NCBI GenBank assembly: GCA_029964075.1
Contig: CM057144.1
Location: 12,919,281-12,983,280 of the forward strand
Direction: 5' to 3'
Length of the DNA: 64,000 bases
From: Patiria pectinifera
Lineage: Eukaryota; Echinodermata; Asteroidea; Valvatida; Asterinidae
Shown here: positions 1,579 through 64,000 of the stretch, piece after piece
How the letters are laid out: every line of letters starts with the position of its first letter
Position numbering within the stretch: position 1 is the stretch's first letter
The notes under the pieces: model-generated
Seen by the model: only the letters and a program-made list of their open reading frames with translations
Database searches by the model: none
What the model was told of the DNA's origin: nothing
Position numbers and translations under genes: made by a program

Positions 1579-2025
1579 CCTCCATAAACGTAAACATCAG
1601 CTGATAAAAGTGGTTTTATTTCAACCTCGTTCCCATGTTTACGTTTACATCACGGCCAGGGGTTAGTGAAGGAACGCGCACGCGCCCATGGAGTCGGGGC
1701 TGCTTTTAGTTGCATTTTGGTTGAAAACGGTGTTTTTGTTTTTTTGTGTTTTTTTTTTTACGGCGCGGGCCAACCTCGTGCCCCGTGGGTACGATCTTGC
1801 AGTTTCCCATCATGCCTTGCGCGATAGTAACCCCTGGAATTGTGTAATTTAAATATACCAAAATACGGTACATTATAATTAGGGCTGCAGTTTATCCGTT
1901 TTACGTGCCGACGCCATCTTTAAAATGTTAAAAGTTGTGGTTTTGAAGAATCAATCCTTTCAAACACAACGTTAGGACGTTCATTACAAACAGTTCAGTC
2001 GCATCTTCCATAGACGACCTTTGAG
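1579..2025. other. Intergenic, no gene seen
   Basis: AT-rich intergenic sequence with poly-T runs (about 1735-1760). I see no exon or further repeat structure here. Confidence 0.4.
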
Positions 2026-39594: not shown

Positions 39595-39643
39595 ATGACG
39601 AGCAGCAAGAAAGATGTGATTATTATCGGGGGCGGGATCTCGG
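39595..39643 (+). CDS. MAO exon 1
   Basis: Starts [16 protein letters not shown], the FAD/NAD-binding GxGxxG motif; ends in phase 1 at gtaagt. The short N-terminus is as in human MAO-B. Confidence 0.9.
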
Positions 39644-42600
39644 GTAAGTGAAGAACGGTAGATGTTTTGTGGAAGACGATGTTGTATAAGGTCACACTAC
39701 ATGCACTACGCCACACGCATTGTGATTTGTGGACTGTGCACAAAGTCTACACTGCACTGCACTACACAGCTTATCAATATGGTCGACGAGCTTATAGTTA
39801 TACACTCCCCGGCCCACCCGGGTTGGCATGAATTTTTTTTTATTGAATTGCATAAAGCAAGGAATAGATGTTCATTGTTAGTCATTTTAGAGTTCATTCA
39901 ATATTCATATTTCTTTTAAAATTTCGGAGTAATTGCCATGATTGCAGAATACCCGCCACTCGGAAATACACCCCTAAATTCTCTGGCTACGAGTACAAGG
40001 TTGGAATCACTGGAAAAGAAACAATTCAAGTCCATGCCAGCTACGCGGATACTGAGTGGGGGTCCATTATTTGAGAACAAAGCAACACAAAAGGAATGGG
40101 AGTTGCTGAAAAAAATTCTAAGTCCAAACCAACCACCCTGTTGGCGGCTACGCGGATACGGAGTGGGAGTCCCCTTGCATATGCTTGAGAACGAAGCAAC
40201 ACAAAAGGAATGGGAGTTGCTGAAAAAATTCTAAGTCCAAACCAACCACCCTCTTGGCGGCTACGCGGATACGGAGTGGGAGTCCCCTTGAATAACGCTT
40301 GAGAACGAAGCAACACAAAAGGAATGGGAGTTGCTGAATTTTTTAAAGTCCAAACCAACTACCCTGTTGGTGGCTACGCCGTTACGAAGTGGGAGTGCAA
40401 TTGAATGTTTATTGAGGTCAACCAACCGTGACCTCGTAGCCAGCTATGAGGTGGATAGATCGAGTGGCGGGGTATTCTGCAATTGTGCCAAAATTTCAAT
40501 GAGTAAGCAACAATGTAGGCCTACTGTCATGACTGTGTACTGTAGGGTTTCTCTAGCCTCATAAATGTGGCCAATTTACTGGACTACCTCCGTAAATAAA
40601 GGCCACGCTTCCACCATGTACAAAAACATGTTGTATTTTGTCAAATTTTGATTTTCACATTTAGGCTTAGTTTGTATTTATTTTTTTTTTTGCTTTAGAA
40701 GCATACTCACCCTCCATATTTTTATAGGCTAATCAAAAAGTGCTGCCTTTTTCAGATGTCAGTTTTTCGTGAAATTTCCAGATTCGTTTGCACATGTTTG
40801 CATATCAAAAAATAAAAAGATAGATTCAATTAAAAACATGAGACTAAAGTAAAGAAAACTATTTTTATACAAAATAAAAAAATTAGAGGCAGAGCAGTGT
40901 GGTTTCAAACCAATTAACAGAAGTCGAACATGTATTAAACCCAATCGAGCTAACGAAGCATTCTTGTTGGACGGGTCGTTATAAATGAGATATAGATTCA
41001 CATGGTGATTTTGCAATATCGTAAAGATAGCGGTTTAAAATCATGTTAAAGCTATAGTCCATCATTTGTTATTAGTGCATTTTGTTCGTTTGAAGCAACA
41101 AAAGTGTTCAAAATCTAATGAAGGATACTGAACAACTTACTTGATGAAGTTTCAGCTCAGCTTCAGCTTTATATTCCGAGAAAAACAGCATTCTAGGATC
41201 TCAATTTCAAATCAAAAGTTGCTAAATCATGTTTCGAATTGTTTTGAATTGCAGCTTTACGCGATGTCGCGCACTGATTCGACGAATTATAGCAACCGTG
41301 CGCGCCTGTGCATCGTTCCAATGCTTGTGCGCGCTGCGCCGAATAACAAAACGAATTACTAATTTAAATTTTCCTATGGTGGTTCTTAAAACGCACCGTT
41401 GGAAATGCCTTCTTTCGTTGATTTCTTCAAAATGAGAGCTTGCCAGAAAGAGTAATTTCACAGGGAGTTTAGTCCCCTTACTATCTTTCAACCAGTATGT
41501 TTTTCAACAATAATTACGCCAGTTACTTTTTTGGATAGCTGCAAATGATGGACTCGGGCTTTAAGGCTGCCGTAACGATAGCCGCTACGTTTTTTAAAAC
41601 AAAGCTATGAAGCCAAAGGCCACTCCAAATTTGATACAAATTTTACAAAATGAAAGAAAAGTTGTCTTTTTACGCTAAGACCTATTGGCCACTCTGTCAC
41701 TGATCAGCTGCCCACATCAGAACAAATGTAAAATTGTTTTATAAATTAACAACATATTTAAATGCGTATTGTTTTTTTTTTTAGGAATGTCTGCAGCAAA
41801 ACTGTTGCAGGAGCAAGGCTTAGATGTGCTGGTGGTGGAAGCGCGAGACCGACTGGGAGGGCGCACTTTCACCCAAGTGGTAAGAAACCCTTCCGTCATG
41901 TCCGTCCGTCCTGTGGCCCCTGAAATAGCCTCGTTCAAAGCCCTCTGTGGATAGCTTCGCATGGCACCTGCTAGCTGGGCGGAGTCATATTACTTTGACC
42001 TCAATTTGCATGTTGACCCCAAGTGGGCGTGTTTTCGTTTTGCAGCACTAAAGGTCCCAGTCTGTATTGTACATGTATGTTGATGTTACATTTATTATAT
42101 ATGTATATATGCACAGTCCATTTTTTTACATTTTTTTTGGAAAAAAAGCTGTACATGTATGCTGTACAGCATGATATGACCATTGACACCATGTTACAAC
42201 CACACTACTTTGTAAAATAGTGATCAATGTTAATAAAGAAACAGCTGTTAGGTTCTCACAGTAGACACTGTGTATGTAAAAAAAACCACCAGACTTTGTA
42301 CCATGTGTTGATGTGTATGCCACATATATGTACAATATATTTTATGCTGCAATAAAAATACAAAGCTTGCTGTAAAAAGCTACATGTTATTATGGCGTGC
42401 ATAATTAACCAGCATGGATTGATCAGGAATTACTTACAATCCATTGTGGTGTCATAATGGAGCAATCAACCTGAAGTTTTGTGTTCGAAAATGTTGGAAA
42501 AACCAAGAAAAACTAAATCGTTGGAGTTTTCACGAAGAGAGAATTGTGGCCACGGGGCGTTGAAACATAGTTTTGAGAAAATCGACTTTAAAGTTGAACC

Positions 42601-45600: not shown

Positions 45601-48600
45601 GTGCAGATGTCTTAGCACTCGACCACTGAGCTAACGGGATCGGTTGGCCGGTTTGAATCTGATGTACATAGCAGCGGGTACCGCATAAACTATTATTAGA
45701 TGGAATTTTTGCGTCGGGGTGATGTAAATCAAATGAGGTTTTGCCCTTCACCGACGTTTAACTTTAAACACTGTATTACTCAGTGTATATTGGGAATATG
45801 CTTACATAAACACACTGTATACTAAGTGTGTTACTCAGTGAGGTCGTGGGTTCGAGTCCCACCCGAGTGATTTTTTCCAACTGTAACTCGGGAGGTAACA
45901 CACTGAGCATGCAGTGTGTTTATGTAAGCATATTCCCAATAAACACTGAGTATACAGTGTTCAAACATCCGTGAAGGGCAAAACCTCATTTGATTTATAT
46001 CACCCCTACGCAAAAATTCCATCTAATAATAGTGATTCATAGTGCACAGGTGCTTTTCAATGTCTGGTAGGAAACCAATGAAGAAGCCCCCTAGCCCCTC
46101 AAGTTTATGGGGCGTGTATACCATGTGACCATAACATTAACACACATTATAATTGAAAGAAAATCATCAACAATGTTACAAATTGCTACAAACAATTTCA
46201 GGAATTGTTACAAACAATTAGTGTCAACCATTTAATGTATTTGGTTTGCTTTTGGTACCTACAGTTTTATGGGTGAGTTAAGGGGTTTTTGGTCAATTTA
46301 TTTGGGGGACCTGCCGACAGACCGACCGACACTAAAGTGACATGTACATGTAGAAGCTCTGTTGCTAGAGCTTAAAAACTTTTGCATGATATTCAAATTT
46401 GTTTGAATGAAAAGTGCATAATTTATTATTTTTCTCCCTCTAAGGATTCCACTGTTGGGTATGTGGACTTGGGCGGTTCCTACGTGGGCCCCACCCAAAA
46501 CCGTCTCTTAAGAATGGCCAAAGAACTTGGAGTGGAAAACTACAAGATCAAAGAAGTTGAACGACTGGTCTGGGTAGACAACGTAAGTAGTCACACCCTT
46601 ATAATGTCTTTTTTTAACCCCCCTATGCAGATATAATTCTCTGCCAAGTAGTCCTTTCAGTCAAAATCAAAATAAATGACTGTTTTCAACAGTTAATAAG
46701 AGCTCCCAGCCTACATAAAGCAGGATTGACTTTCTGGGACTTGATACAGCTATGCTTTGACTCCGGGTGAGTGATAAAACAGCTGTGACCACAACTTGCC
46801 TGCTTTGTCTGTTGACCCAGTTTGACTAGTCACAGTGCTTGCTTGACATGATCTGACTGCTGGTGACTAGCCTTTGTTCAAAGTATAGCAGGGGCAGTGG
46901 AAGTGAATTTGGACAGACATTTGAATATTCCATTGTTTCTTGAAAAGGATAATTAAGAATTGAATTGAATTGAATGGAACTACATGTACCTCATTCTCCA
47001 ATAACAAGATCCTTCCTTTGGGGGAAAATATACTTCATGATTTTGCGTTTCTCGAATCCCGTCAGTTTATGGCTTGCACCTTTTGATCCCATTTACAATG
47101 TTTAGTACATGTACAAATTGTGCTGTGTGTATGTACATGTATAGAAAACTTGCCCTAAAACTTTTCTTTCGCTGTACACATACATGTGTACTTATATGTG
47201 TGTACAGAAGCCATTTGAAACCAGCCACCTATGACCTCGCGCTTTCAACTTTAGACCCAACCCAGGGAGTGCTACCTAATCCTAATAACCTACGTGTGAA
47301 CCATGAATAAAGGTCACATGAGGCGAACTTTGGTTGTTAATTTAGTGCAGCAAGCAGACAGATAAGGCAATATAATGTGCAGCATGGTACAGTGGTACTG
47401 TACTGGTACATGTATGGCACAATGCATCCAGGTATAATGATCTGATACACCGTGCCCTCTGGAGACATGCACACAATAGGGAACAAAAGATTGCATACAT
47501 CTCCACAGGGCAATTTCTATAGATGAATACCTCTCCACAAGGTTTTCACGAAATAGATAGGCCTATATAGATTTTACTAAAAAAGTAGGAATTTCCAAAT
47601 GGAAGAGTTTAAGAAAAGGGAGATTAAGTCTGATTTTCAGCCAAGGAAATTAATTCTGGTTAAAATAAGAGCATTTTGAAACTACACTTTCAAACTTGAA
47701 AAGTTTACTACATGGGAACAAAGAAATGTCTCCGCAAGGATACAAATTTCAGTATGTGTGTACTGTATGTAACTACAGTATTTAACTCTGGCGTCTATTT
47801 TCTTTTACGTGTTTCATGAATTTGAAATTATTGGGCAATAATGAGACTGATTTACCACCATTTGAGATTTAAGATTGGAACCTACATTTTGTTATTGTTG
47901 TTTTTAATATTCAGGACATACCGGTACATGTATAAAGCGTGTGTGCACACACTCTTGTTTTACTATACTCTCGAGGACAATGCCTTGTGTTTTCCTTTGT
48001 CCCTGTAATATAACACTCTCCCATATAGACTAAGCACACAAACTTACAGTGGACCGTTTCCAACAAAAGACCGAACTCCTGAGGACTGAAAGGATCTGTT
48101 GTTCTCCCTTTGTGTGTTGGTTCTCGGGGGTTATGTAGAACACGTACACATGTGCATGATTTCATTTTTCGCAGTACAGTGTTAAAAAAAGTTAAAAGGA
48201 AAATGCCAAATTTAATTGAGACCATACTTGTAAATTAGAAGGTTGTTCAGGCAGCATGATTGAAGTCAACGTACAATGTACACATTGGTTGAATATTCAA
48301 AGCAGATTGAGAGGCCACCATCGTGTAGAGCTTGTAATGCAGTCAGTCATACACTGGATGTGATAGACCTTTATCATGCTGCCACCATTTCAGTCATGTT
48401 CCCTGTATCCAGTAACGGTACTGAATGATTAGTTTTTTGTGCAAAAAGGAACCAGACTATTTTTTCCTTCCAGCCTCCCTTTGGTTACGTTGATTTGAAT
48501 GGGAACAAATGAAGATGGTTTATTGCTTCAAGGGAGCTACATTTGTACATGTACGGTACACCTGCTTCCGTCAATTTTCTTAGTGCCACTTAAAAAAATG

Positions 48601-51600
48601 TCCCAGGATGCTGATCTCCGCAAACTTTATTTTCTTTTCTGTTTTCTTTCTCCACAAAAGCAAAAATGTTACCCCTTCACAGGAACTTGGCCCAGGTTCT
48701 GGAATCCTTTGGTCAACATGGACCTGAATAACGCCATCAGGGAGATTGACAGACTGGGAGACATGGTAAGTTAGTGGATTTGGGCTGTGGATGCATGTGT
48801 GGAGTGTGCAGTATGATTGGGTGTGGATGTGGATTTTGGTGATGTTGAGGATGCTGATGGTAGAACAAGTCAGCCTCTAGAGTAATTGGGAGCATTATTG
48901 GTTTTCGATGGGGATGGGGATGCAGATTGGGTTTGTGGATGGAGATTGGGTTGTTGATGAGGATGTGTGGATTCAGATGGGGTGTGGATGGGGGTTTGAG
49001 TGCAGATACATGTACATCCAGGTAAGCTTGTGGATATGGAAATGGATGTGGATGCTGGTGGGAAAGGATGAGCATGATGCAGGTGGGGTTGTTGATAGGG
49101 ATGTGGATAAGATGAAGTTGTGGTTGTGGATGCAGTTGAGGTTGAAGATAAAATGTGCATGCATATCAGGGTGATGTTAATGGGGGATTGGGATGAAGAA
49201 GGGGTGAATGCAGATGGGGTTGTGGATGCAGATGGATTTTGGATGATGGTTGTGGATTGGGATGGGGTTTTGGAAGAGGTTGTGGATGCAGATGGGGTTG
49301 TTGATGGGGAGGTGGATGCAGATTGGTTATTGATGGAGATTGGGATGGGGTTTGGAAGGGGTTGTGGATGCAGGTGGGATGGGGTTGTGGATGGGGATGT
49401 GGATGCAGATGGGATATGGAAGGGTTTGTGGATGCAGTTGGGGTTGTGGATCAGGATAGGGAGGTGGATGCAGATGGGATTCGGAAGGGTTTGTGGATGC
49501 AGATGGGGTTGTGGATCGGATGGGGAGGGGGATGCAGATGGGTTTTGGATGTGGTTGTGGATGGAGATGGGATGGGGTTGTGGAAAGGGTTGTGGATGCA
49601 GATGGGGTTGTGGATGGGGAAGTGGATGCAGATGGGTTGTGGATGGGGGAGTGGATGCAGATGGATTGTGGATTGGGATGTGGATGCAGATGGGGTTGTG
49701 GATGGGGAAGTGGATGCAGATGGGTTGTGGATGGGGGAGTGGATGCAGATGGATTGTGGATTGGGATGTGGATGCAGATGGGGTTGTGGATGGGGAAGTG
49801 GATGCAGATGGGTTGTGGATGGGGAAGTGGATGTAGATGGGTTGTGGATTGGGATGTGGATGCAAATGGGGTTGTGGATGCAGATGGGCTGTGGATAGGG
49901 AAGTGGATGGAAATGTGGTTGTGGATGGCGATATGGATTCATATATCTTCACTTCCTCAACAGATACCAGTGGATGCACCCTGGGACGCACCCAACGCTG
50001 AGGAGTTAGACAGCATGACGATGAAGGAATGGATCGACAAGACATGCTGGACAGAGTAAGTCCATTCATACCATTCAAATGCTTCCAGCGACCCTGCTAC
50101 AGCGCACAATTTTGGGAGTTGGACATCTGTCCAGAACCGCATAGTCTGAACTATATCTTTGATACATATTAATATTATTATTTTATTTCTGGTTATGATA
50201 CTAAGAAATCCTCAAAAGCGCCCTAGGCACTGTAGTGTAAGCTCACAAGCCTGCAGAAACCTGTAGAGAGAAGACGATATGAAGGAATTACAGTTATAGA
50301 GGTGGGAGGAAAAGCCCAGAAGAATATTCTGGGGAAACCCACGGAATCAGGTTGGGACTGAAAACCCAATCCACACATGTGGACCAAGGCGGGATTCGAA
50401 CCTGGGTCACAGCGGTGGAAGGCGCAACGCCAACCTCACTCCAAACCTGACCTGTTCATGTTGTCTGAAGCTGTGGACAAATATAACTGACATTTCAGGA
50501 ACTGCAGCTTTGGGTTAAAAGTATGTGTGTGTGCATGCATAGTTTATTGTTTTGGATATTCAAAGCAGCAAAAAGTCTATTTGAAAATCTGGTTGATGAT
50601 TGAATATTTGGTATATTCGGAACAGCCCCAACATGTATGTATGTGGGATCAACAGGTTTTTATCTCTCGCTGGACCTGCAGAGGGTTCGTTTAGTCTATC
50701 TACGTGAGCCGTGAAAGGACCATTCACTGTGCACAGCCAAGCAATGCACAGTCGAATCAAGAAGTTTTTAATTGTTTTCTGAAAACTGGGGGGAAAAAAA
50801 TAACAACAGACATTTGCAAAAAATGACATCAGAAATATTTCAAATTTTTAACAGTTTAGATGTAATTACGCATGAAAGGCTGTAAATTGTACACGTTTGT
50901 TGAGATTTAGATTGAAAAGTATGGACTAAAAGTTTCAGGCTAATGATTTGTTTGAGTTTTAGGTTTTTGCTTCTACAGTTACCGGTAGTGTGCTTTTTCT
51001 TTTGTTTTGGGTTTTTTTTGTTTATTGATCCAGTCCTTCTGAACCAGTCCATCTGAGGCGTGCGATTGCACCCCCACACCATCGCCCGCCTAAAAGCTTC
51101 TCGAGAAGTGTGAATAATTGTGCCTGAATCGCCCTGGACCACAGAATCACACACCTACATGTAGAAAATCACACACCTAGAAAAATCACACGCCTAGAAA
51201 AATCCATGTGTGCCTTTTTCCACACGCCTGTGATTTTCAAACCAGAAGGACTGTTGATCATTATTTTATTTTTTAAATTGACTGCAAAATTTGTAGTGCT
51301 TAAAATACATGTAGTTTGACAGCGTTACAAGCAACGTATACATTTGTTCTTTGACGAAAGCATTCATGTTCTCCACATTGCTCGTAAAGAGAGGCAGCAT
51401 GGTCTGGTGCCATCACTGTAGTACCACTGGAATCACTGCTTTGAGTCGGGGAACAGGACCAAGATGGCAGTGCTTTTTCGCCTAGCGCCCCGACTCACAC
51501 GCGATTCAATCATTGTATCATTTAGAGTAGTCCGTCGCTTCATGGACGTCTTCTGTCGACTGACAGTCTGCAGTTGCCCCCAGGAGATCTCGGTCTTGTT

Positions 51601-54600
51601 TCTCTGCTGGTATGTCCAGCAGGCGGGAAGGTTCTGGCGGAACTTTGGCCGAGAGAATGGGGGTCAGGTACCAGACCGGTGTTTTTTCTTGTTCTGTATA
51701 TGCCTTGTGACCTGTTCTGCTTTCTGTAGCCTTTAGTAAGAATAATCCATTATAGACTGTCTGTGTGCATGTAATGATGTAACGTATTTTTCTTCTTTTC
51801 AACCGGTGATGGATTGGTTCTAGAAATCTGAAGTGTCAAGGCTGAACATAAAATTAATTCAAAATTTGTTTTAAATAAGATATAATTTGATTTATCTCGA
51901 GTAGTGATGGTGGGTTTTCATTACTACCACTCACCACATCTTTTTCGTTAAATGATAACCACAAATGGAATCTGGGAACACTGCTACTAAAGTCGAGGTT
52001 TTAAAGAAATTAACGAGGGTGAGGTTTGAATGGTAACGTCAGAAATGCTGGTGTGCTACTTATTGGTGCTCTAATTTGGACCCTGCCAACACACATGTAA
52101 TACACAGTTTTGAAAGGTTTTTTTTTTCCTGCCAATTTTTTGCCAACTACTTGTGATGAGTCACCCAAATGCAAGCATGGTGCACATTAATTTGCATAAT
52201 TTCTTTTGCACACAACCTGTCACAAAATGTTTGGCTACTCTGCCCAGTGAAAGCCCCTATCATACGATGCCCCTGTCATACGATAGTTATCCCCATGTGC
52301 TTATTTTAATAAAAATAATACCAGAGTTTTATACAGTGCTCGTATCTATCAACAATTAGGTACTCAGGGTGCTCATTAATATGAATATATTTCAAAGACA
52401 GGTAAATGAAGTAATTGAAATATGAGGCCCATTTTATGTAGCACCTTATAAGGGTTAACAAGGTGCTGCGGCGCATTAATAAGCCACTGCCAGAAACACC
52501 GGCGCAAACCCCTTCTCTAAGCCTGAATGTGACGGGGTTCCTTTACGTGCAGAAGTTATTTATCCACAAGTGTTTTTGTGTGTGTGTGACATTCTCTAAG
52601 TTTGTCTCTAAGATATTGCAGCAAGGCATCCCGGGGCCTAACCTAAGTCTGTTAGGATAAAGTCTGACACCTATTACTCCAGAAAGAGGCCTTCATTATC
52701 ACTTTCATCTGTCAACGATGAAGCAGACTGCCGAAGGATTCCTCCAACTGAGTTCCTCCTGGGCTGCCTTTCAGATCTTTTAGATTCCCCCTGAAATGAG
52801 CTGCTGGGTTGATCAGACTGCAGGCAATTTTCTGATGACAACGGCATTTTTTGGTTTCCACCTGTGTTTATTTTCCTGACTGCAGAACCAGTCGGCGATA
52901 TATGCGATACGTGGTGAAAGTTATCTGGTGCGTGGAGCCCTGGGAAGTGTCGGTATTGTCGTTTGGCTGGTATCTGGGGTCGGCCGGTGGTATCCGCGGA
53001 GAGATTGCTGCCCAGGTTGGTTGTTGTTGTCACATGGATGCGTTGTAGTTTCAGCTACGTCACATCACAAGACGGGCAGATTGTATCTTTGTTTCGTATG
53101 TCCAGTGTTCCAACATTTTCATCCTGTACCCTTTCAGACATCCACTATGCACCAAGCCTCCTGGTGCCAACAAAATCTAACAAACAACGGTGTCTTAACT
53201 TCCCTGTTACTGCCTCACCAACAAGATCAAACAGCAAAAGGCCAGTTTGGTATCTCGCTGTGGAAGTCCAGGTCAAAGGTCATTTGGGATGAAATCGCTG
53301 ACGTGATGCTACGTGATGTTACGTTAATTACTGCTCGTACCGTAATTAACACGCGAGCGTAGTGCGCCCGTGTCCCTGCACGATCATGCGCCTTCGATGA
53401 GCGTTCGATTATTTGAATGACCGTGACCCATATCATTGTGCGCATGCGCAGTTGAAATACCGAACTAGCTTACTGCTTGTTGTTGGATCTTGTTTGATGC
53501 AGCACGGTTATGTAGGCAACAATCTTGCACAACTCCATTCTTAACAACTATTCAAATGCTAACTTGAGATGCTGTTTGTTGTGGTAAGGTGTCTTCAATA
53601 GTGAGGTCAGAGGTTCGAGTCCCACCTAAGCAATCTTGTTGCATTTTTACCACAAGTTCAAGGAAAGCACTGATCATACAACACCAACATGTACATGTAT
53701 TGTACCCATTCAATTGTTTTTTTTCAACTCTTCATCCAATTCATATCAATCTCTTTCCTCAACTAACAGATTAACTATTCTCTACATAAAATTGTAATGG
53801 ATGTTGTGGTTCATAAAATCAAAACCAGAGTGGAATCTGTTGTTAAAAGTTAATGAGTTTAAAAAGAGATATGCATTACTACCAGTGTGGTATTTCTAAG
53901 TGGTTGGTTTTGTAGCATTTGCTTTTAACTTTATGCCGCACCCTGAACTCTGGTTTGAATTAACGATAATAGAGATATGGCTTGAGTATGGAACCCATGC
54001 ACCATATCTCTTTCAAAGCGATTGGGCCAGACTCGAGTCCATGAAATGCTGCTGTGGAGGGATCGCCACACCTCCTCCACAGCGAGTCTGTTACCTTCCC
54101 AGCATTGAATAATCCCGGTACCCATTTAACACCTGGGTTGAGAGGAGTAATTGAGGTAAAGCGCCTTACTCAAGGGCACAACACGCATGGCCACGACAGG
54201 GCTCGAACCCACAATCTCACGATCATGAATTCCATGCTCTACCGTTAGACCGCACGTGCTCCCACATGACTGTAGTGGAATGAATGGGAGCTTCCTGTAA
54301 AATCGGATAACCGTTATTCGGTTTGAAAAAGTTCGGATAACCGGAGTTAGACTTCTCCCACCACTAATCTCAACGAAGAGAGTAAATGGATTTGATATGT
54401 CCATTTCTGAACACAGAACCAGTCGACGTTTCGTCAGGTATCTCACAAGTGTGGTTTGGTGCGTGGAGCCCTGGGAAATATCGGTCTTAGCGTTCTGCTG
54501 GTATTTGAAATCGGCCGGAAACATCAGGACAGAAAATGCTGCGCAGGTTGGTGCTTCACCAAACTATGCACTTTTACATCTACCAGCTACATGTACATGT

Positions 54601-57600
54601 CAGCTATGCAACATGTATAATTGTCCCAAACCGTTTCGCATAACAAGGCAAACTTGTCAAGTCATACATATGTCGGCTTTTACGTGCTTCGTTTGTTCTT
54701 TTTTTGCTGGCACATGCTTTAAGTTGATCAATAATTTATGTTTGTTCTGCATTTTTTGTGAATTCTGTTCTTGAACAGCTTACGTTTGTAAGTAATTGTG
54801 CTGATTTTCTTTTTTTTCTGCTTAGGCCAAATATAAAAGAAAATCATGTTTAGCGTCCTGCCTTTTTGAAAAAAAGGAGGAGGAGGCCCTCCTTTTTTTT
54901 TTTTTCCCAAAATTGCTGCTTGATCTTTTTACCAAAACGACCAGCCGGGCCATTTTTCAAGATGGCCGCCAGTTGTTTTTGAATGGCCGCCACTTGGACT
55001 CAGGAAATGACATTCCAGCTTTATATGGGCTAGATGCAACAGACAAAGAGGCCAAAATGATGTCACTGTTTAACATTTATCATTTTTTCATTTTTTATTT
55101 TTTTTATAAAAAACAAACAAAAAATAGGAGGCAGCCTCCAAAAAGGAAGCGGATGGGGATGCTAAACATTTTTTTTTATCTGGCCTTACTTGTTCTTTTT
55201 TTGTATTTTATTTTGGTTATTGTTTCAGAGAATGTATTATAATGTGCATAATGATAATTGATAATGTAGTATCAGTAAATAATACATCTACGTGTAGATT
55301 TAGTTCAATTCAGATTACACCTATCATCAGGTGTCATCACAAAAGAGCGTTGTATTCGTAACTATTTAAGATGGTGGCTGTGAAGAGGGTTGAAAAGTGG
55401 AATATTTATGACATCGTCACAACTACAAGCATCACAATTTCAAATGTGACATCAAATGAAAGGGGACAACAAGACCTTTTATTTGAGTGGTGCGCCAGTA
55501 AGATAGATTTTCTTGCAGGTGTATTAGAGTCGTACAGTTCATCACAACGCGGTCACGAGTCAACATATTAGTCAGCAACTTATTACAGTGTGGTAACCAT
55601 GCCATCAGGTTGCAATGCAATGCCCTCAGATCTAAGCACCAGTCTGTTTATAATGTTCCTTTTATTCCCCCCACAGAAGCACTCGTCGTTTTCTAACGAT
55701 GTGCTGCAGTTTTATGCTGGCAGCGGAACCTGCCGAGTTGTCCTGTCTGTTCTATTGTTTTCACGCTAAGAAATCGGCCGTACACGTATTGCATCATCAG
55801 GGTCCTGCGGAGGATGGTGCCGAGGTGTGTGGGATGATGGGATTGATTCTGTGCCTTGCAAGCAGAGAAGAGAGTAGAAAAGCAATCTGCGTGTATGCTA
55901 TGACCATAGATATAGAATAAAAAGACTAGATCGGCAGCGCGTCCACACGCGCATGCCTTGCATGGAGGGTCACGTGCTGGAGGAAAGATACAAATTGCGC
56001 GCTAGACGTGACGAACGCAATGCCGTTGACGCGCACAATACAGGTTTATGGCAGACCTTCAATTCTAATTAAAAACACAAGAGCATAGATCAGATAACAC
56101 CGTTCCCATAATGTTGAAACGCCAGTCTACTCTTGTTGTTTATTTCAATCAGTATCTCTTGAATATGAATGCTTATGATTATGACTAGGGCCTACTTAGC
56201 TTTGGTTGTCTTAAAACAGGTTTATTTTACAGAAAATAAACTGGCTATCCCATAGCCGAAATGAAAAGCGGCAAACCAACGTGTAAGCGTTCGTGTACGC
56301 ATCGCGTAAACACTCGGTGCGCATTTCTAGCTTTGCGCGCGTTGAGCTTGGTCACGTGCTGGAGGAAAGATACATTACTTTACGTTGATTTGTTGCGCGT
56401 CCACGAGAGACAACAAAAATGGCGGAGACTTATCGCACAGTGAATTGGCGCGTGTGAACGCGCTGCCGATCTAGTCATTACCTATATCTATGGCTATGAC
56501 AAGCTGCATTATAAATAAAGTACTTCCAACTCGAAAGTGATGTTACTGGCCTAAGCACCATCGATAATAGAACTTCCAATAATCGATATATTGGAAATCC
56601 AATATCGTGAATTATTGATATATCGACTATCCCTTGTAAAAGTTCAAGAACATAAAGATGAGATTTTGACTTTAAAAAAAAATTTACTACCAATTTTCCA
56701 TGGCTTTCTCTGGAGCATGTATTGCTCAAACTTTTTATCACAAATTTCAGCACTGAGAGTTTGTTCAGAACGGGTGGTTTGTTTTGAGGTTTTACATTGA
56801 GGAGACCGCAAATTCCAGCAAATGCGGAGCACGAAGTGAGTCAAATGACGCCATTTGGCATTTCACTATTTTTTAAATTTTTGTTGGCATCACAAGCACA
56901 AGTTGCCGCCGACTTTTGATTCATTAGGCATCAAACATTAATCGCAGAGTAAAAGCGCAAACGGGAGATTCATTTCGACGACTTATGTCAGCGATATTTT
57001 CAATATGATTCCTCAATATCGAAAAATTTCGATATCTGGGTATGATTAACAAATTGCTATCGGCGATATCGATAGCAAAATAATATCAAATAATCAAGTA
57101 ATATTGATATTTTGACAGTGCTTAGACCGGCCTGTTCATTTGTCCGAATGTGGGGGAACATTGCAAGTGCATGCACTTGTCCTTTCAAAGCCAGCTTCTC
57201 CAAATCTGCTTCGAAAATCCAAGCAATGTTTGCCTCTGCAATGTCTGCTGAATACCCGGTTGAAAAGCATGTCATTTGGGCCTCATTTAAGTCTCTAATA
57301 CAAAGGTATCAGTAAGTTGATGGGCATGTCTGGTTTTCTTAATTTTTTTAATTTAGCTAATGTAAATCATCACCTTTTACTTTGATATCAATGTAAAGTG
57401 TATTATTCGGATAAAGTTGGTTTCTAAACTGGCTGCATGTCCTAAAGGCTGCACGCATGACTAATTGAGGGCGCTCTGCGGACTACTAAACAAAAACCAA
57501 GTCTAACAAACTTTTATTGCTGGTACCCCATGCCAAAGTCTTCGACATTCTAATAAACGTGGCCTCGTGGTTAAGGGCACTGGATTTGTGGTCTGTGGGT

Positions 57601-60600
57601 AAAGCTGCGGGTTGTGGGTTCGAGTCCAGCCGGGGTCATGGTGCGTGTGCCCTTGAGCAAGGTACTTTTTCACTCATTGCTTCTCTGCACCCAGGAGTAA
57701 ATGGGTACCTGTGAGGGCATGCAGAGATGGTTATTGTGACCCATGCAATCAGATTGCAATGTACATGTAACAGGGCTGCCAACTTTGAGTGAGAGGTGAG
57801 ATTGAGAATTTGGCGACGGAGAGCGCGAAGCATGAAGCCCTAACGGCGTGGCGAGCCCCGAAAAAAAATTGGATTCTAGATGCTCTGTGGTGCGATCTGA
57901 GGCAATTTCTGACCACTGTAATCATTATTTTTGGGAGCAAAAAAATCATCACTATCTGGGAGTCCAGATATTATAGGAATATGAAATCGCTCGGAAAATA
58001 TGTGGGTTTCCATTTTGCGATGACACCGTCGACGCTGCTGCGTATATTGCGTGCTGAGGGATTTTCCCCGATGAGAAATCATTTTGTGTGTTGAGCGCGG
58101 TGAGAAATTTGCACATTGTATGCTGCCAATGCGATGACAGCCAATGCAATCGTTCATCGTGCGACCATAAAGTTGCAAGATTCTTAAATACTTAATTGTT
58201 TTATTTTTTATTTTTATATATTTTTTTTTTAGCATGAGAAATCCTGTGTGGGCTTGAGAGCGTGAGAATAACCCGAAATGCGTGACTGTCACGCTCAATG
58301 CATGAGAGTTGGCAGCCCTGATGTAATGCGCTCAGATCTAAGCACCCGTCTGCTTCTGTTCCTTTTTATTCCCCCACAGAAGCACTCGTCGTTTTCTAAC
58401 TATGTGCTGCAGACTCAAATTGACAATGGATCCGGCTGAAATGTCTTGTCTGCACTTTTGTCGGCACGCTAAGGAGCAGGGCGGCTTGCGTCGGCGCGAG
58501 GTCACAGAGAGTGGCGCCGAGGTGTGTGGGATGATGGGATTGATTTGCGCGATGGACCGATTCTGTGCCTTGCAACCAGAGTAGAATCAGTTAAAGTCAG
58601 AGTCCATCGTTTGCAGCTATCCATAAAAAAACTAGCGTATTTATTGTTGAAAAACATACTTGGTTGAAAGATAGTGAATACCTGGTTGCAAGGCGTGTTG
58701 CTTGGGCTGCATTTATGTCTCTAATACTGAGGGACCAAGTCTGTTGACGGGCATGTCTGGTTTTCTGCGTTTTTCCTTTTACTATTGTAACTCATTACCT
58801 TTTACCTTTGATTTCAACAAGTAGAGCATTATTCGGGTATAGTAGGTTTCTCAACTGGCGACATGTTGTTGACGCTGCATCTATGATTAATTGAATAACA
58901 AAAACCATGTATAACAAGCTTTTATTGCTGATACCCCATGCCAAAGTCACCGACGGTCTAAAGAAGATTTTACCAGTTTTAATGAATGTAAATGAAACTA
59001 CAGTGCATAATGCACACATAAATGTTTTCTCAAAAAGTACCACAGTCCAGTGTGAGGGCATGTAAAAATTTGATCTTACAAGACCGAGATCATTTTCAAC
59101 ACATAGTACAAAGTAACTCATTTGCAGCTTTGATTTCTTTTCATTGCTTTTAACAATACACCGCTTCCACCTGTCACTTCCCAGTTCTTTCCCAATGCAC
59201 CTGCTTCCTCTAGATTGATTGCACCTGGCATGTTCATGCAGTTGTGTGTTTTACTTTGTCTGTTGTTATTAAAATTCATTAGAATGTAATCAAATGACAA
59301 AAAAAGGGTTGTAGTGCTCGTTCTCGTGGCTTGTTCGTCCATCACAGGTGATGAAGACCACTTTAGTCATCCAGTTGACAAGATTAAGAGCCGAAGCGTC
59401 CAGACTCCAAACCGGTCGTAAACATAGCGTTTAAAACTGGCCAAGTACACGTATTTATTCCCTTTCATAAACACCTTGTCGGTCAAAAAGTCAAAACAAG
59501 TCAAAAATTGTAAATTTCCAATGATGTTGTTCACCAACTTTACTTCATGTTTTTTTTAAACACTCCTCTCGTGAGTAGTCGTAAACAACTCCTTATATAT
59601 AGAGATTGGTGCGTGCTGCGTGATGTGGTGCGTGCTGCGTGATGTGGCGCAGAGCGCAGCTGTGCCGGTGAAGTGTGAATTTAGGACTATGAGATATTGA
59701 CTCGTTGGCAGTATTACTCATGCCTTAGGCTTGTGAACGTTCAACCAACAAAAGGGTAAAAGGGACCGGATTTCATAGGAGTCTAAATTTCACGTGACAC
59801 TTGGAAAATTTTCAAGACCAGCCAGCTGGTATTTTATCATCCGTTTGAGACCGGCCACGTGACAAGCTTTTGACCAATAGTAATGAGTAAACTGTCTTCG
59901 GTATTTATGAATGTAGGTTTAAGGTTTATCCTAGTAACAGATGATCATTACTACTGCCGACATGATAGTCCAATATATTTTCTGCTCCAAGATACGCCTA
60001 GAAGGTCGTAGACGTACGTTGGTCAGGGTTAGGTGTGCAGCAACTAAATTCTTGATTGGATTCTAGAAGTTTAGTCTTGGATGTTGATGTTGTCCAGAGC
60101 CGGCTTGAAAGTCTTAATGTCAGGAGCAGAGCGGATGGGTGCATTGAGAAACGAAAGGCTGTCCTTATTTGTGGTGATGACTGAGAAAGTTCATGTGGGT
60201 GAAAGTACATTTAGGTGACTGGTATTTCATTTTTTTTATTTCGAATTTCCAGCAGAGTGACGACACAGGATTATTAACCCTACCGGTAACTCCCTAGGCC
60301 TTTTTGCCAGGATGTAGCCTCAAATCCTGCAAAAGGGAACCACAAAGCATTGTCCTCAGTAGTGTAGTAAAACACGACTGGGTGTTTATAATGTGTTTCA
60401 TGTAATTCTGGGTGATTTAGCACATTTTTGTTAGATCTAGCAACATTTGGAAATGCAGCTGGCGGAATTTACCTTCTTCTTTTTTTCTAGTCACTCTGCT
60501 GTCCATGTTCTTCGTTTTCCACAGAAGCACCCGGCGCTTCATGACCTCTTGGTGTAGGTGTATCCTATGCATGGACCCAATGGAAGTCTCGCGACTGTGC

Positions 60601-63600
60601 TTTTGTTGGTATGTTAAGACGTGCGATGGATCGTTTTGGCGAGTCGGCGATTGTGATTCGGATACTCAGGTGTGTGGTGGATGATGGGATTGATGGACAA
60701 TGGACCGATCCCGCTGTGACAACCAGTGAAACGCGTAGCCTCCTTTGTGAGATTCCATTCACGCAGACAAAAACCAATGCTTCCAAATTTTGCTAGAATT
60801 GCAGACATGTAATTAATGCTTTCTGTTGTGAAAATGCACCCCGAATATTTTGGACAAATTTTGGCAACAAGTATCAAAGTAAAATTGGCAATTCCACCAA
60901 AAACAATTAGAAGAAATGTTAATAAGTGCAGACAGCACAAGGTATGCAAAAAGAAATAGCTTTAGAAAGGCACCTTCAAACCTCTTGAATATGCTAATGA
61001 GGATAAATGATCTTAAGATCGCATTGGCTGTCAAGAATGGTATGAGCTTGTTGCCAGGCACACGACTCGTGTCATCAGGCCTCGTTTTTCATTGGTCAGC
61101 TGAAGGATCGGTCTGTTGGAAGCGTGTCATTTTCTTGGGTGCGTGGTGATTTCAAGCGACTTTTTTTCCGGTGGGTTTCTTGTCTTGGCAAACCTGCTTG
61201 TGCTCGTTAACCATGCTGTAGATTCAGGAACATACATGTAGCTCTAGAAGCCATCATGCATGCAGCACGACCATCGAAAAGCTTTGATGTTCTTACTTCA
61301 GCCACATCTGGACACTCGTCGCAAAACCAACAGCAGCTAACCTACCGGGTACTAACAAAGCAGTTGGCATGGTGCCATATTGCTTGAGGCCAGTGGCTTA
61401 TGGTGCAGAACATTGCTGATTATGTTGGGGGGGGGAGGGGTGGGCAAGCATGTTCTCTTCGCTGCCTGGATTTTTTTTCCGGTCAGCCGGCCATTGCGAA
61501 ATCAAAAAGTTGTGGGTGGGGGAAACGGACACAATCTGATGGTGTGTGTCTCTCGTGAATAGTCATAAAAAAACTCCTTATATGGAGATTTGCGCGTGGT
61601 GTGCGATGTGGCGCAGAGCGCAGCTGTGCCGGTGAAGTGTGAATTTTGGACAATGAAATACTGACTCATTAGTAGTAATTGCTCATGCCTATTAGTGAGG
61701 ATTGTGAACGTTCAACCAATAAAAGGGTAAAAGGAACCAGATTTCACAGGAGTCCAAATTTCATGGGACACCAGAAAAGTGTTTGAAACCAGCCAGCCAT
61801 GTCTTTATCATCCATTTAAGACCGGCCAAGTGACAGGCTCTTGACCAATGGGAATGGGTAAACTGACATAGTAGTCCAATACATTTTCTGCTTCAAACAC
61901 CTAGAAGGTTGTGGACGTACGTTGATGGTCAGGCGCACAGCAACCAAATTCTTAGCTCGGTGGTCGTGTGGTAAGACATCTGCACTAGAAAGCAGGAGGT
62001 TGTGGGTTCGAGTCCCACCCGAGTGATTTTACCAACTTTCACTCGGGAGGTAACACACTGAGTATTCAGTGTTTATACATCGGTGAAGGGCGAAACCTAA
62101 TTTGATTTACATCACCCCGATGCAAAATTCCATCTTATGAATAGTTAATGCGGTACTCGCTGCTATGTACATCAGATTCGAACCAGCCAACCGATCCCAT
62201 TAGCTCGATGGTCAAGTGGTAAGACATCTGCACTAGAAAGCTGGAGGTCATCAGTTCGAGTCCCACCCGAGTGATTTTTCCAACTTTCACTTGGGAGGTA
62301 ACACACTGAGTATACAGTGTTTATATGTCGGTGAAGGGCAAAACCTTATTTGATTTACATCACCCCGATGCAAAAAAAATCCATCTTATGAATAACTAAA
62401 CTCTTAATTGGACTCCAGAAGTAAGTCGTGGATGTTGATGTTGTCCAGCGCCAGTTTGAAAATCTAAATGTCGGAAGCAGAGTGGATGTCAGGTTGAAGT
62501 TGATTCCATTCAAGGATGGTCTTTTGGGTACATTGAGAAACGAAAGCAGTCCTTATTGACCTTTGCCAGGAGGTATGTGTTTTCATCGGGGTTGGTTAGT
62601 TTGTCTGTGAACAGGATAACTCGAAAAGTTGTGGACGGAAATTCATGAAATTTGTTTTAGGGGTGGTCCTTGGTAAAAGTACGAAGCGATTAGATTTTGG
62701 ACGTAATCTGGATGCAGGATTTATTTTAAGGATTTTTCATCATTTTTTATGTACAAATATCCCATAGACCATGAAACCGGGGCACCCCTCCCCCCCCAAA
62801 AAAACCACAACAATGGGCCCGTCCATTTCTGGGCCATATACCTTGCACACGGTGCAAGTGACAGGCCGTGAATGTTAAAATCATTATACACTAGGAAACT
62901 GGTCCCTCTAGAGTTAAGTACAGACCAATTAAGCGGCTAGTTGCAAGCCCCTGTTTTACAGTGTATGACCCTCAATTTAAACAGTGATCTTATGGAATAG
63001 TGCTGCAGCCGAACCGCCAAACCGGACTAAAATAGCCGAACATGGCCTTCCGAACCAAACCGAACCGCACCGAAATGGTCGGTCCGGAAGTTCGGCATTT
63101 TTTTTTTGATAGCGCTAGAAATGCTAATAATGCTTGCAATGAAAGGGCAAAATTTTAGCATATGGATGATTGAACTTGCCGTGTTATTAACAAGTCATTG
63201 CATTCATCTTCATTGTTTGGTGGGCGAAGATCCACGATTGTCCGTCTTCGGCGTGCATAATCCGTACAACCATGGAGCTAGTAAAGAACATGTACAATGT
63301 ACGTTAGGTATGGAAGCCAGGCATGTAAGACACGCGAAAAAAAATTCTAGGAAATTTTATACTTTTTTCTTTAAAGAAAATTTTATAACATGTGCATGTG
63401 AGTGTAAGTGTGCATGTACGGTACTACATAACCCCCTAGGACCGACACTCAAAGGGAGAACAACAGATCCTTCCAGTCCTCGGGCGTTGCGTCTTTTGTT
63501 TAAACGGTCCTCTATCATACGGTTATGTGCTTAGTATAGGGGAGAGTGTTATATTACAGGGACAAAGGGAAACACAAGGCATTGTCCTCAGTAGTATAGT

Positions 63601-64000
63601 AAATACGACTGGGTGGGTAGGCATTACATTCACTGTGTGGACTTCCGAACTAAAGAGGTCCACATAAACCAGGTAGAGGAGACGTTGTGTGGACTTGCCC
63701 AAGTCCACACACTTGGGCAAGTCCACACACTTAGCAAGTCCACACACTGTGTGGACTTGGGCAAGTCCACACAGTGTTTCTCCATTTCTGGAAAACAGGT
63801 TTAGAGGCATTTTTTGGGTTAGGTTTATCAGTGGCAAAATAAAGAGAAACACTAAAGGGAATCTTAGAAAAAAAATTGGCTTGAAAGAGTTTTCACAGTT
63901 TGAGAAAAAAGAGTTTTTTCACTGTTTTTTCTTAACTGCACGAAAGCAATAGAATGTCCACACTTGGTATGTAACGTAAACATGGGTGTTTATAATGTGT
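39595..64000 (+). CDS. Monoamine oxidase-like flavin amine oxidase, partial, with tandem alternative exon 6 array
   Basis: MAO oxidatively deaminates amines with covalently bound FAD at the mitochondrial outer membrane. Constitutive exons 39595-39643, 41785-41879, 46445-46582, 48661-48765 and 49964-50055 chain in phase and match human MAO-A/B from the N-terminus to about residue 159 (IIIGGGISG dinucleotide motif, [35 protein letters not shown]). Then six versions of the next exon follow at 51526-51667, 52886-53015, 54417-54546, 55677-55824, 58380-58521 and 60525-60669. The rest (ERKFVGGSGQ onward, the FAD-linking Cys and the membrane anchor) is not in the window. Orthology to MAO is clear in family terms; whether it deaminates the classical monoamines is unknown. 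Confidence 0.9.
40039..40400 (+). repeat. Tandem repeat, about 111-bp unit, three and a fraction copies
   Basis: The phrases GGCTACGCGGATACGGAGTG and CACAAAAGGAATGGGAGTTG recur at about 40039, 40148, 40258 and, in part, 40369. Located in MAO intron 1. Confidence 0.85.
41050..41560 (+). repeat. Family Z repeat
   Basis: Copy of 6370-7040 with a different centre; ends in TTTTTGGATAGCTGCAAATG. Confidence 0.65.
41785..41879 (+). CDS. MAO exon 2
   Basis: Encodes [20 protein letters not shown] then [12 protein letters not shown], the rest of the Rossmann fold; the Glu of VVEARDR binds the ribose of FAD in this family. Phase 1 in (TTTTTTTAG), phase 0 out (gtaaga). Confidence 0.93.
41880..44990. other. 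MAO intron 2, no gene seen
   Basis: Contains a segment at 42715-43030 with repeated TTGTCTCTTCGTGAAAACTC-like phrases and an open frame at 43653-43877 without recognised domain. The part at 43240-43410 resembles 26090-26240. Confidence 0.4.
44990..46030. mobile_element. tRNA-SINE tandem array, family D: three minus copies and one facing plus copy
   Basis: The tRNA-like head (complement of GTTAGCTCGGTGGTCGAGTG, B box GGGTTCGAGTCCC) recurs at about 45065-45150, 45312-45397 and 45560-45645 in minus orientation, 247-248 bp apart. A partial plus-oriented copy at 45838-46010 faces them. A second tandem pair with the same 248-bp period is at 61950-62395. Confidence 0.85.
46445..46582 (+). CDS. MAO exon 3
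   Basis: Encodes [20 protein letters not shown] and [18 protein letters not shown]. The Tyr of [10 protein letters not shown] corresponds to MAO-B Tyr60 of the cavity and is kept. Phase 0 on both sides; donor gtaagt. Confidence 0.95.
46640..46880 (+). repeat. Dispersed repeat, family W
   Basis: Third copy of the element at 29645-29885 and 33870-34140. Confidence 0.65.
46900..48660. other. MAO intron 3, no gene seen
   Basis: A repeat at about 47990-48175 is the complement of 63410-63600 (phrases GAGAACAACAGATCCTT and TATTACAGGGACAAAGGAAA-like). Otherwise no feature recognised. Confidence 0.4.
48661..48765 (+). CDS. MAO exon 4
   Basis: Encodes [20 protein letters not shown] and [12 protein letters not shown]. 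By gap-free alignment with MAO-B, Pro102 is Thr, Phe103 is Trp, Pro104 is kept, and Trp119 is Ile, so the cavity entrance differs from vertebrate MAO. Phase 0 both sides; donor gtaagt. Confidence 0.93.
48775..49955 (+). repeat. G-rich minisatellite, GGATGTGGATGCAGATGGGG type, filling MAO intron 4
   Basis: About 1.2 kb of 6-, 12- and 18-bp periods (GGATGT, GGATGCAGATGGGGTTGT) with a higher-order 84-bp unit near 49600-49830. G is almost confined to the sense strand, where T rather than C fills the gaps. Long open frames on both strands (a His/Pro-rich one on the minus strand, Gly/Trp/Asp-rich ones on the plus strand) come from the periodicity. Confidence 0.9.
49964..50055 (+). CDS. MAO exon 5, last constitutive exon before the array
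   Basis: Encodes [20 protein letters not shown] then [11 protein letters not shown], near identical in layout to MAO-B [31 protein letters not shown]. Ends in GA, phase 2, at gtaagt; every array copy starts with A and so completes the Glu codon. Confidence 0.95.
50056..51525. other. MAO intron before the array
   Basis: No further exon copy seen. This is where a shared docking site for mutually exclusive splicing would be expected; I could not identify one by eye. Confidence 0.4.
51526..51667 (+). CDS. MAO alternative exon 6a
   Basis: 142 bases; 47 residues from [10 protein letters not shown] to ENGGQ, the same length as the human segment with no gap. It keeps the MAO ending NGGQ and has Phe at the gate position (MAO-B Ile199, MAO-A Phe208). 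Acceptor ATCATTTAG, donor gtacca. The most MAO-like copy. Confidence 0.88.
52313..52555 (-). mobile_element. Truncated family A SINE
   Basis: Contains TCAACAATTAGGTACTCAGG and GCCAGAAACACCGGCGCAAA, as in 9300-9709, but lacks the tRNA head. Confidence 0.8.
52886..53015 (+). CDS. MAO alternative exon 6b
   Basis: 130 bases; 43 residues from [10 protein letters not shown] to IAAQ. Four residues shorter than 6a, with the gap at the gate loop. Acceptor with a good pyrimidine tract (TTTATTTTCCTGACTGCAG), donor gttggt. Confidence 0.87.
54115..54262 (-). mobile_element. tRNA-like SINE fragment
   Basis: On the minus strand: GTGCGGTCTAACGGTAGAGC (A box) and GTGGGTTCGAGCCC (B box), then a body ending ACCGGGATT. 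Different from families A, B and D. Confidence 0.6.
54417..54546 (+). CDS. MAO alternative exon 6c
   Basis: 130 bases; 43 residues from [10 protein letters not shown] to NAAQ; closest to 6b, with the same four-residue gap. Acceptor TCTGAACACAG, donor gttggt. Confidence 0.87.
55677..55824 (+). CDS. MAO alternative exon 6d
   Basis: 148 bases; 49 residues from [10 protein letters not shown] to EDGAE, two longer than 6a. The conserved WY at positions 28-29 is FH. Acceptor TTTTATTCCCCCCACAG, donor gtgtgt. Closest to 6e. Confidence 0.82.
55900..56500. mobile_element. Inverted-repeat element between exons 6d and 6e
   Basis: Left end (TATGACCATAGATATAG, then GACTAGATCGGCAGCGCGT) and right end are complementary over about 55 bp. 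GGTCACGTGCTGGAGGAAAG occurs twice inside. No transposase. Confidence 0.7.
57559..57745 (+). mobile_element. Truncated family B SINE
   Basis: Matches the first half of 21061-21425, including the B box GGGTTCGAGTCC. Confidence 0.8.
57765..58326. mobile_element. DNA transposon relic with inverted ends and 6-bp target duplication
   Basis: The element 57771-58320 begins CAGGGCTGCCAACT and ends AGTTGGCAGCCCTG, flanked by ATGTAA on both sides. It interrupts the duplicated intron segment that precedes exon 6e and that is continuous before 6d. Confidence 0.85.
58380..58521 (+). CDS. MAO alternative exon 6e
   Basis: 142 bases; 47 residues from [10 protein letters not shown] to ESGAE, no stop. The WY pair is RH, and Lys occupies a position that is Cys172 in MAO-B, so this copy may be the least functional. 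Acceptor TTTATTCCCCCACAG, donor gtgtgt. Confidence 0.8.
59375..59890 (-). repeat. Family X repeat, minus orientation
   Basis: Complement of 13885-14455 (AACGTTCAACCAACAAAAGG, GACCGGCCACGTGACA). Confidence 0.7.
60525..60669 (+). CDS. MAO alternative exon 6f
   Basis: 145 bases; 48 residues from [10 protein letters not shown] to DSDTQ. Retains CWYV as in 6a. Acceptor TTCGTTTTCCACAG, donor gtgtgt. The last copy seen in the window; the array may continue to the right. Confidence 0.85.
60670..61549. other. MAO intron, no further exon seen
   Basis: No seventh copy and no constitutive exon 7 (ERKFVGGSGQ-like) is recognisable here. Confidence 0.4.
61550..61880 (-). repeat. Family X repeat, minus orientation, second copy
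   Basis: Shares GATGTGGCGCAGAGCGCAGC and AACGTTCAACCAATAAAAGG with 59375-59890. Confidence 0.7.
61950..62395 (+). mobile_element. tRNA-SINE tandem pair, family D
   Basis: Two plus-oriented copies with B boxes GGGTTCGAGTCCC and CAGTTCGAGTCCC start 248 bp apart (61954 and 62202), the same period as the minus array at 44990-46030. Confidence 0.85.
62396..63640. other. MAO intron or downstream region, no gene seen
   Basis: The part at 63410-63600 repeats 47990-48175 in the opposite orientation and is echoed at 60340-60400. A frame at 63106-63534 spans it and is not supported. Confidence 0.4.
63640..63785. repeat. Nested palindrome of GTGTGGACTTGCCCAAGTCC units
   Basis: Four alternating units of CAAGTCCACAC and GTGTGGACTTG with the palindromic core CTTGGGCAAG or TTGCCCAA lie within 110 bp, so several alternative hairpins can form. 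Confidence 0.85.

Follow-up and report, generated by a model that had tools for sequence, protein, structure and literature searches.

The window analyzed here is a 64,000-nucleotide (nt) stretch of the genome of the sea star Patiria pectinifera (C16:12919281-12983280), in which a flavin monoamine oxidase (MAO) gene begins and enters a tandem array of copies of its sixth exon. Coordinates were extended past 64,000 with C16:12983001-13001000, giving 81,720 nt in total (C16 position = extended position + 12919280), and genome searches covered 613,548,705 bases in 1020 contigs. A sea star relaxin-like hormone matched this genome with 77% and 92% identity in its two parts, as a sea star origin would predict, and a mitochondrial COI query gave no match. 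The locus is one complete MAO gene of 15 exons. Exons 1-5 were located with a human MAO-B sequence, and a single set of exons 7-15 lies downstream of the array:

39595..39643, + strand: MAO exon 1, with the flavin-binding motif
41785..41879, + strand: MAO exon 2
46445..46582, + strand: MAO exon 3
48661..48765, + strand: MAO exon 4
49964..50055, + strand: MAO exon 5, ending in phase 2 with ..ACA GA, then a gtaagt donor
72863-73015 (extended coordinates, as in all lines below): MAO exon 7
74472-74631: MAO exon 8
74818-74914: MAO exon 9
76056-76109: MAO exon 10
76279-76339: MAO exon 11
76982-77079: MAO exon 12
77197-77308: MAO exon 13
78017-78079: MAO exon 14, with a GC donor
78300-78443: MAO exon 15, containing the stop

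The assembled protein contains GGGISG, SGGCYTATYGPG, THWAGYMEGG, GSVIKCMVYY and LARTAIASTAAGLLIAWRLKNK, and it ends in a hydrophobic tail. It carries the motifs that mark MAO-A/B-type enzymes, namely the Rossmann GxGxxG, the SGGCY region with the cysteine that binds flavin adenine dinucleotide covalently, the aromatic-cage tyrosine pair, the catalytic lysine and a C-terminal membrane tail; amine oxidation is its predicted activity. The Pfam family PF01593 exceeds its cut-off at three places within the gene. Between exons 5 and 7 lie 11 copies of exon 6:

51526..51667, + strand: copy 1, 142 nt
52886..53015, + strand: copy 2, 130 nt, gate loop short by four residues (human MAO-B 197-200 in the alignment)
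54417..54546, + strand: copy 3, 130 nt, pairs with copy 2 (dN 0.24, dS 1.49; nonsynonymous and synonymous distances)
55677..55824, + strand: copy 4, 148 nt, human Tyr188 replaced by His and Gln206 by Glu
58380..58521, + strand: copy 5, 142 nt, pairs with copy 4
60525..60669, + strand: copy 6, 145 nt
64132-64276 (extended coordinates, as below; beyond the window end): copy 7
66128-66269: copy 8
67758-67899: copy 9
68040-68181: copy 10
68332-68473: copy 11

The original prediction had placed six copies in the window, and the boundaries of all six proved exact, with AG before, GT after and no stop in the frame continued from exon 5. As a count, six is too low, since the window ends before the five further copies. 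Repeats upstream of copy 6 reappear near the window end, and a further copy beyond it was therefore suspected. The residues proposed as invariant (Arg-Arg at positions 3-4, Glu20, Ser22 and Leu24) hold throughout the first six copies, as does Pro18, but over all 11 the first Arg becomes Asn in copy 8 and Ser in copy 11. AG/GT flanks and an open frame are found in 11 of 11 copies, each entered in phase 2 and left in phase 0. All start with A, which completes the GA at the end of exon 5 to GAA (Glu), and their lengths, 43-49 codons, are all 1 mod 3. The residue at this junction is Lys in human MAO-A and Glu in human MAO-B.

Homology to the human enzymes varies from copy to copy. Joined to exon 5, copy 1 matches human MAO-A across all 78 residues (E 1.4e-21), with exon 5 supplying much of the score. 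Searched with the human MAO-B sequence at E up to 10, the window returned copy 1 (E 6e-4), copy 6 (E 0.012) and copy 2 (E 1.6), with copies 3-5 absent from the matches. Three copies were tried singly against the PDB: copy 6 matched MAO-A at E 0.0045, copy 2 gave E 0.22, and copy 4 gave no match up to E 10. None of copies 1-6 matched Pfam as a single exon. Comparisons of copy with copy by tblastn reach E values down to 3e-19. For copies 2-5, where support from human MAO is weak or lacking, homology is judged from their likeness to the other copies together with place and phase.

A profile built from the 11 copies was run over stop-free pieces of at least 12 amino acids in all six frames of the extended 81,720-nt sequence. 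It recovers all 11 at E <= 3e-20, a match by construction, and its next best match (E 0.017) lies downstream of the array; no decayed exon-6 copy was found with it in the array. Such copies would probably have been detected, because the profile finds diverged stretches in paralogues at E 1e-6 to 4e-4. A genome search with a copy-9-like query returned array copies only (8 matches).

Exon 6 is the one exon of this gene that forms the array. In blastn searches of the 81.7 kb, exons 1-5, 7 and 8 are each found once, apart from five chance matches (12-17 nt, E 0.36-0.81). With the whole copy-9 isoform at E up to 10, every tblastn match from the end of exon 5 to the start of exon 7 is a copy of exon 6, bar one at E 7.8. 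The copies are thus unlikely to be separate genes with their own exons 1-5, one of the findings that the original prediction had named as fatal to it. Other MAO genes do exist in the genome. The profile detects one diverged exon-6 stretch in each of three MAO paralogues (C14, E 9.7e-7; C13a, E 1.2e-6; C13b, E 4.3e-4) and, on C18, one in each member of a pair that is more distant (E 4.5e-6 and 0.0057); none of the three MAO genes examined has an exon-6 array. In these three, one open stretch (C14:11182039-11182239, C13:7216853-7217053 and C13:7246740-7246946) corresponds to human exon 5 plus most of exon 6, so the paralogues are without the intron that houses the array. A search for retrocopies recording a splice junction gave no match above 73% identity outside C16.

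Spliced in silico with a single copy, 11 of 11 isoforms are open to the terminal stop and encode 516-522 residues (517-523 codons including the stop). Skipping exon 6 leads to a stop after 170 residues, and none of the 55 ordered pairs of copies stays open, stops falling after 211-252 residues. Frameshift followed by nonsense-mediated decay is one of the recognized mechanisms that enforce mutual exclusion of exons (PMC5740500).

Constraint and duplication history

The amino acids of the exon 6 copies are constrained. By Nei-Gojobori counts, with about 32 synonymous sites per pair, the proportion of synonymous differences (pS) exceeds that of nonsynonymous differences (pN) in 54 of 55 pairs, the sole exception being 10/11. 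A one-sided Fisher test applied to 10 pairs, whose P values are not independent in that pairs have copies in common, gave P<0.05 in eight. Copies 2 and 3 differ at 21/32 synonymous and 20/97 nonsynonymous sites (P 5e-6), and the other seven are 5/6 (5e-6), 8/9 (2e-4), 1/6 (0.007), 1/9 (0.014), 7/8 (0.022), 4/5 (0.038) and 1/3 (0.044). Synonymous distance lies past the correction limit in 26 of the 55 pairs, which argues that the array is old and that its older copies have long been open. In a neutral simulation of copies 1-9, with no insertions or deletions modelled, the mean probability that a copy retains its frame together with the Glu codon and the AG and GT at its flanks was 0.24 at 0.15 substitutions per site and 0.025 at 0.5.

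Nearest relatives among the copies tend to be neighbours (2/3, 4/5, 6/7 and 9-11), as expected from repeated tandem duplication, in a tree of about 47 residues whose support is weak in parts (0.36 for 6/7). Intron blocks are duplicated beside copies 4/5 and 6/7, the latter as follows:

59630..60371, + strand: intron blocks of repeat families D2, D5, D7 and D8 preceding copy 6, which recur at 61594-63603 ahead of copy 7

The repeated blocks are a trace of the segmental tandem duplication that produced copies 6 and 7. Repeats of another kind, tRNA-like in units of about 247 bp, occur at 45019-45761 and 61952-62375, one pair of them inside the array between copies 6 and 7; they are probably a tRNA-derived interspersed element.

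Candidate splice choice and the substrate channel

Exon 6 corresponds to residues 160-206 of human MAO-B, in a numbering that is consistent with residue names in the literature. The copy-9 isoform is 55.7% identical to human MAO-B over 517 aligned residues. Taken by part of the protein, identity is lowest in exon 6 (copy 9, 42.6%), against 62.7% in exons 1-5 and 54.2% in exons 7-15. The review PMC12223828 lists Phe103, Pro104, Trp119, Leu164, Leu167, Phe168, Leu171, Ile199, Ile316 and Tyr326 as lining the MAO-B entrance cavity; according to it, the pockets of MAO-A and MAO-B differ chiefly at Asn181/Cys172, Phe208/Ile199 and Ile335/Tyr326. Ile199 is described as the gate there and in PMC11510145. 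Exon 6 therefore holds five of the ten listed entrance residues and two of the three main differences (Cys172/Asn181 and Ile199/Phe208).

The copies differ strongly at most of these positions. Columns were compared for copies 1-9, with 10 and 11 omitted as near duplicates of 9; the alignment of the gate loop in copies 2-4 is uncertain. In copy order, human position 167 reads VYYMMSSFT, 168 reads FVLCCWWNC, 171 reads LVVFLCGGL and 172 reads TIVMKITDI, and at the gate 198 reads N,-,-,Q,R,V,V,I,N and 199 reads F,-,-,G,E,G,G,T,L. Position 164 is Phe or Tyr throughout, and 206 is Gln save for Glu in copies 4 and 5. Positions 163, 177, 179, 181 and 183 are invariant, and Pro, Glu, Ser and Leu at 177, 179, 181 and 183 are so in all 11 copies.

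We propose, with a probability of roughly 0.7, that exon 6 was tandemly duplicated to 11 versions forming a mutually exclusive array that would swap pocket walls. In any one transcript a single version would be spliced in after exon 5 and ahead of exon 7; exons 1-5 and 7-15 would supply a constant flavin-binding and catalytic core, and each copy a different wall and gate of the channel leading substrate to the flavin, so that up to 11 pocket variants could come from one locus. We infer that transcripts use different copies, that exclusion is enforced at least by frameshift and nonsense-mediated decay, and that the variants differ in substrate preference. A bolder form of the proposal, to which we would give only slightly better than even odds, is a Dscam-like array in an enzyme active site, by which one MAO gene would make about 11 enzymes with differing substrate gates and, through the choice of exon in splicing, serve a broad range of amines. 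Such an array would have been retained very long, given that synonymous sites are near saturation.

Published features of mutually exclusive exon clusters, namely similar length, homology among the exons, and conserved splice sites with an open reading frame (PMC3228551 and PMC5740500), are present in 11 of 11 copies, and the genome test in PMC3228551 tolerates a length difference of 20 amino acids. The further cluster features are present as well, in that the copies are internal exons of one gene and shift the frame on double inclusion or skipping. As length, splice-site, frame and homology features of this kind occur in 0.56% of fly X chromosome exons that are not mutually exclusive (90/16,180; PMC3228551), they make a good prior rather than proof. 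Donors match the consensus at 6.7 of 9 positions in the copies and 6.5 in constitutive exons (P 0.79), and upstream pyrimidine content is alike (means of listed values 0.73 and 0.72). Weak donors as a mark of regulated exons were accordingly rejected. The copies are splice-competent on paper and, with donors and pyrimidine tracts that match constitutive ones, the choice among them would be made by something not visible here.

In Dscam1, exclusion at exon 6 is enforced by docking/selector RNA pairing; no convincing pairing of this kind was found in the MAO array. Windows of 40 nt from intron 5 and the last intron were scanned for pairing with as much as 300 nt flanking each copy, with shuffled controls, in one genome, whereas the usual route of detection is conservation across species. 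Upstream of the copies there was no excess (best real pairing -29.0 kcal/mol, best shuffled -29.8), and downstream the best real pairing (-29.0 against -27.8 shuffled) involves a G-run. On the points that DNA can address (one gene, one repeated internal exon, splice sites, phase, frameshift and constraint) the mutually exclusive array originally predicted agrees with our results; the predicted copy number was too low.

These docking results weigh against the array that we propose, and so do several others. For copies 6/7 (dN/dS 0.73, P 0.28) and 6/8 (P 0.08) constraint is not significant, and copies 9-11, almost identical at pS 0.06, are too alike to judge. The excess of column entropy at pocket positions over random sets is modest: the five entrance residues taken from the literature give P 0.057, a set of eight with 172, 198 and 206 added gives 0.027, and 172 and 199 alone give 0.028; omitting 164 and 206 gives P 0.0001, for a set picked after viewing the data. 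Positions 191, 200 and 201, outside the pocket, are equally variable. In copies 4 and 5 human Tyr188 is His and Gln206 is Glu, and in copies 2 and 3 the gate loop is deleted; isoforms with copies 2-5 may on this account fold or work differently, and are possibly altered or inactive.

Alternatively, copies 9-11, perhaps with copy 1, might be the only ones used, copies 2-8 being remnants of exon duplication now left out of transcripts. Copies 9-11 and 1 retain the NGGQ end of human MAO, copies 9-11 lie nearest exon 7, copies 2-5 alter or delete residues common to both human enzymes, and the dN/dS of 6/7 fits as well. We nevertheless think this unlikely: copies 1-8 all retain frame, phase, splice sites and the Glu codon despite high synonymous divergence, copies 2/3 are strongly constrained (P 5e-6) and 4/5 more weakly so (P 0.038), and half-decayed copies were not found in the array. 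Somewhat less probable still is alternative splicing with an effect other than substrate choice, in which some copies would yield decoys or inactive enzyme, or would modulate stability or partners at the membrane. The His and Glu replacements in copies 4 and 5 and the missing gate loop of copies 2 and 3 would suit such a role. Variation at most pocket and gate positions beside the four residues invariant in all 11 copies does not, nor does the placing of the catalytic motifs in constitutive exons.

Two further explanations concern the locus itself. The copies might derive from several MAO genes, or from a trans-spliced or multi-promoter locus, and not be alternatives within one transcript. In favour one could cite the genome's other MAO genes and the false positives that PMC3228551 names for its predictor, among them duplicated genes in tandem, loci with trans-splicing and exons at gene ends. 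We consider this very improbable, with exons 1-5, 7 and 8 single in the 81.7 kb and exon 6 alone repeated between exons 5 and 7, as an internal exon that starts in phase 2, and with the examined MAO paralogues on other contigs. An assembly artefact, with haplotypes or repeats piled up as separate copies, would account for the near identity of copies 9-11, which lie 140-150 nt apart and whose exact number could be wrong. Copies 1-8, however, differ from one another and from 9-11 well beyond allelic expectation (pS 0.23 to 0.90), and an artefact on the scale of the array is the least probable of the explanations considered.

Other repeats and genes of the region

A second repeat within the MAO gene follows directly after the full exon 9, which holds the human Tyr326 region. 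At 74991-75670 in extended coordinates (C16:12994271-12994950) lie five tandem 75-nt copies of the 3' part of exon 9 only, in a 151-bp unit, with AG before, GTCAGT after and a length of 0 mod 3. A second functional array was considered here and rejected, since by phase the partial copies cannot replace exon 9 in frame after exon 8. Their in-frame addition after exon 9 is possible, and we judge the repeat to be a young minisatellite. A long imperfect minisatellite of GTGGATGCAGATGGGATT-like units occupies 49204-49896, in the intron directly upstream of exon 5.

Elsewhere in the window, an XPG/ERCC5-like gene carries at 31901-32603 about 17 tandem copies of a 41-bp unit, each comprising the 3' splice site and first part of the XPG I-region exon, directly upstream of the real exon; these units are a row of decoy acceptors. 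A gene with RING and B-box domains lies at 21468-22829 (- strand) and a C-type lectin-like gene at 12287-13018 (+ strand). At 2014-2790 (+ strand) a fragment of a reverse transcriptase is matched weakly, under the Pfam cut-off.

Related systems and significance

Mammalian UGT1A yields several enzymes from one locus by swapping a substrate-binding exon, but the variable exons there are first exons with their own promoters, whereas the MAO array is an internal exon behind constant exons 1-5. The clearest enzyme precedent that we found is coq-2 of nematodes and other rhodoquinone makers. As described in PMC7434440, its internal mutually exclusive exons 6a and 6e are 134 nt long, not a multiple of 3, and the swap alters part of the enzyme core and switches substrate. 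That gene encodes another enzyme and has two alternatives as compared with eleven in MAO, and for coq-2 both RNA and function have been shown, while the MAO array is predicted from DNA. The authors of the coq-2 study call change of an enzyme active site by alternative splicing rare, know of few further examples and cite CYP4F3 as the other notable case (PMC7434440).

The Drosophila sulfotransferase gene pip also belongs here, as an enzyme gene with tandem homologous exons that are mutually exclusive in eight repeated clusters (PMC9013439). The clustered exons of pip are terminal and give alternative 3' ends, unlike the single internal exons set between constant parts in MAO; with about as many alternatives among its terminal exons (PMC9013439), pip weakens any claim for the size of the MAO array. 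Dscam1 of arthropods has large tandem arrays of homologous internal exons of which one enters each transcript, but it is a surface recognition molecule and has several clusters (PMC1397879 and PMC6071210).

Human MAO-A and MAO-B (PDB 2z5x and 1gos) belong to the same enzyme family and share the pocket region at issue. In vertebrates the two pocket types come from two genes; the single sea star gene may yield many. Among the titles and abstract openings listed from the open-licence literature, none reported such an array in an MAO or other amine oxidase, a scope that does not establish its absence in print. Enzymes with swapped exons, such as coq-2 and fly pip, are already known; what would be new is the 11-copy internal array on a catalytic pocket. 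To our knowledge, no enzyme pocket has a larger set of alternative internal exons than an 11-fold array on the MAO gate and channel would provide. If the proposal is correct, the locus would offer a natural set of pocket variants of a heavily studied drug target on one constant scaffold, and whether splice choice sets amine specificity by tissue or by diet would be directly testable.

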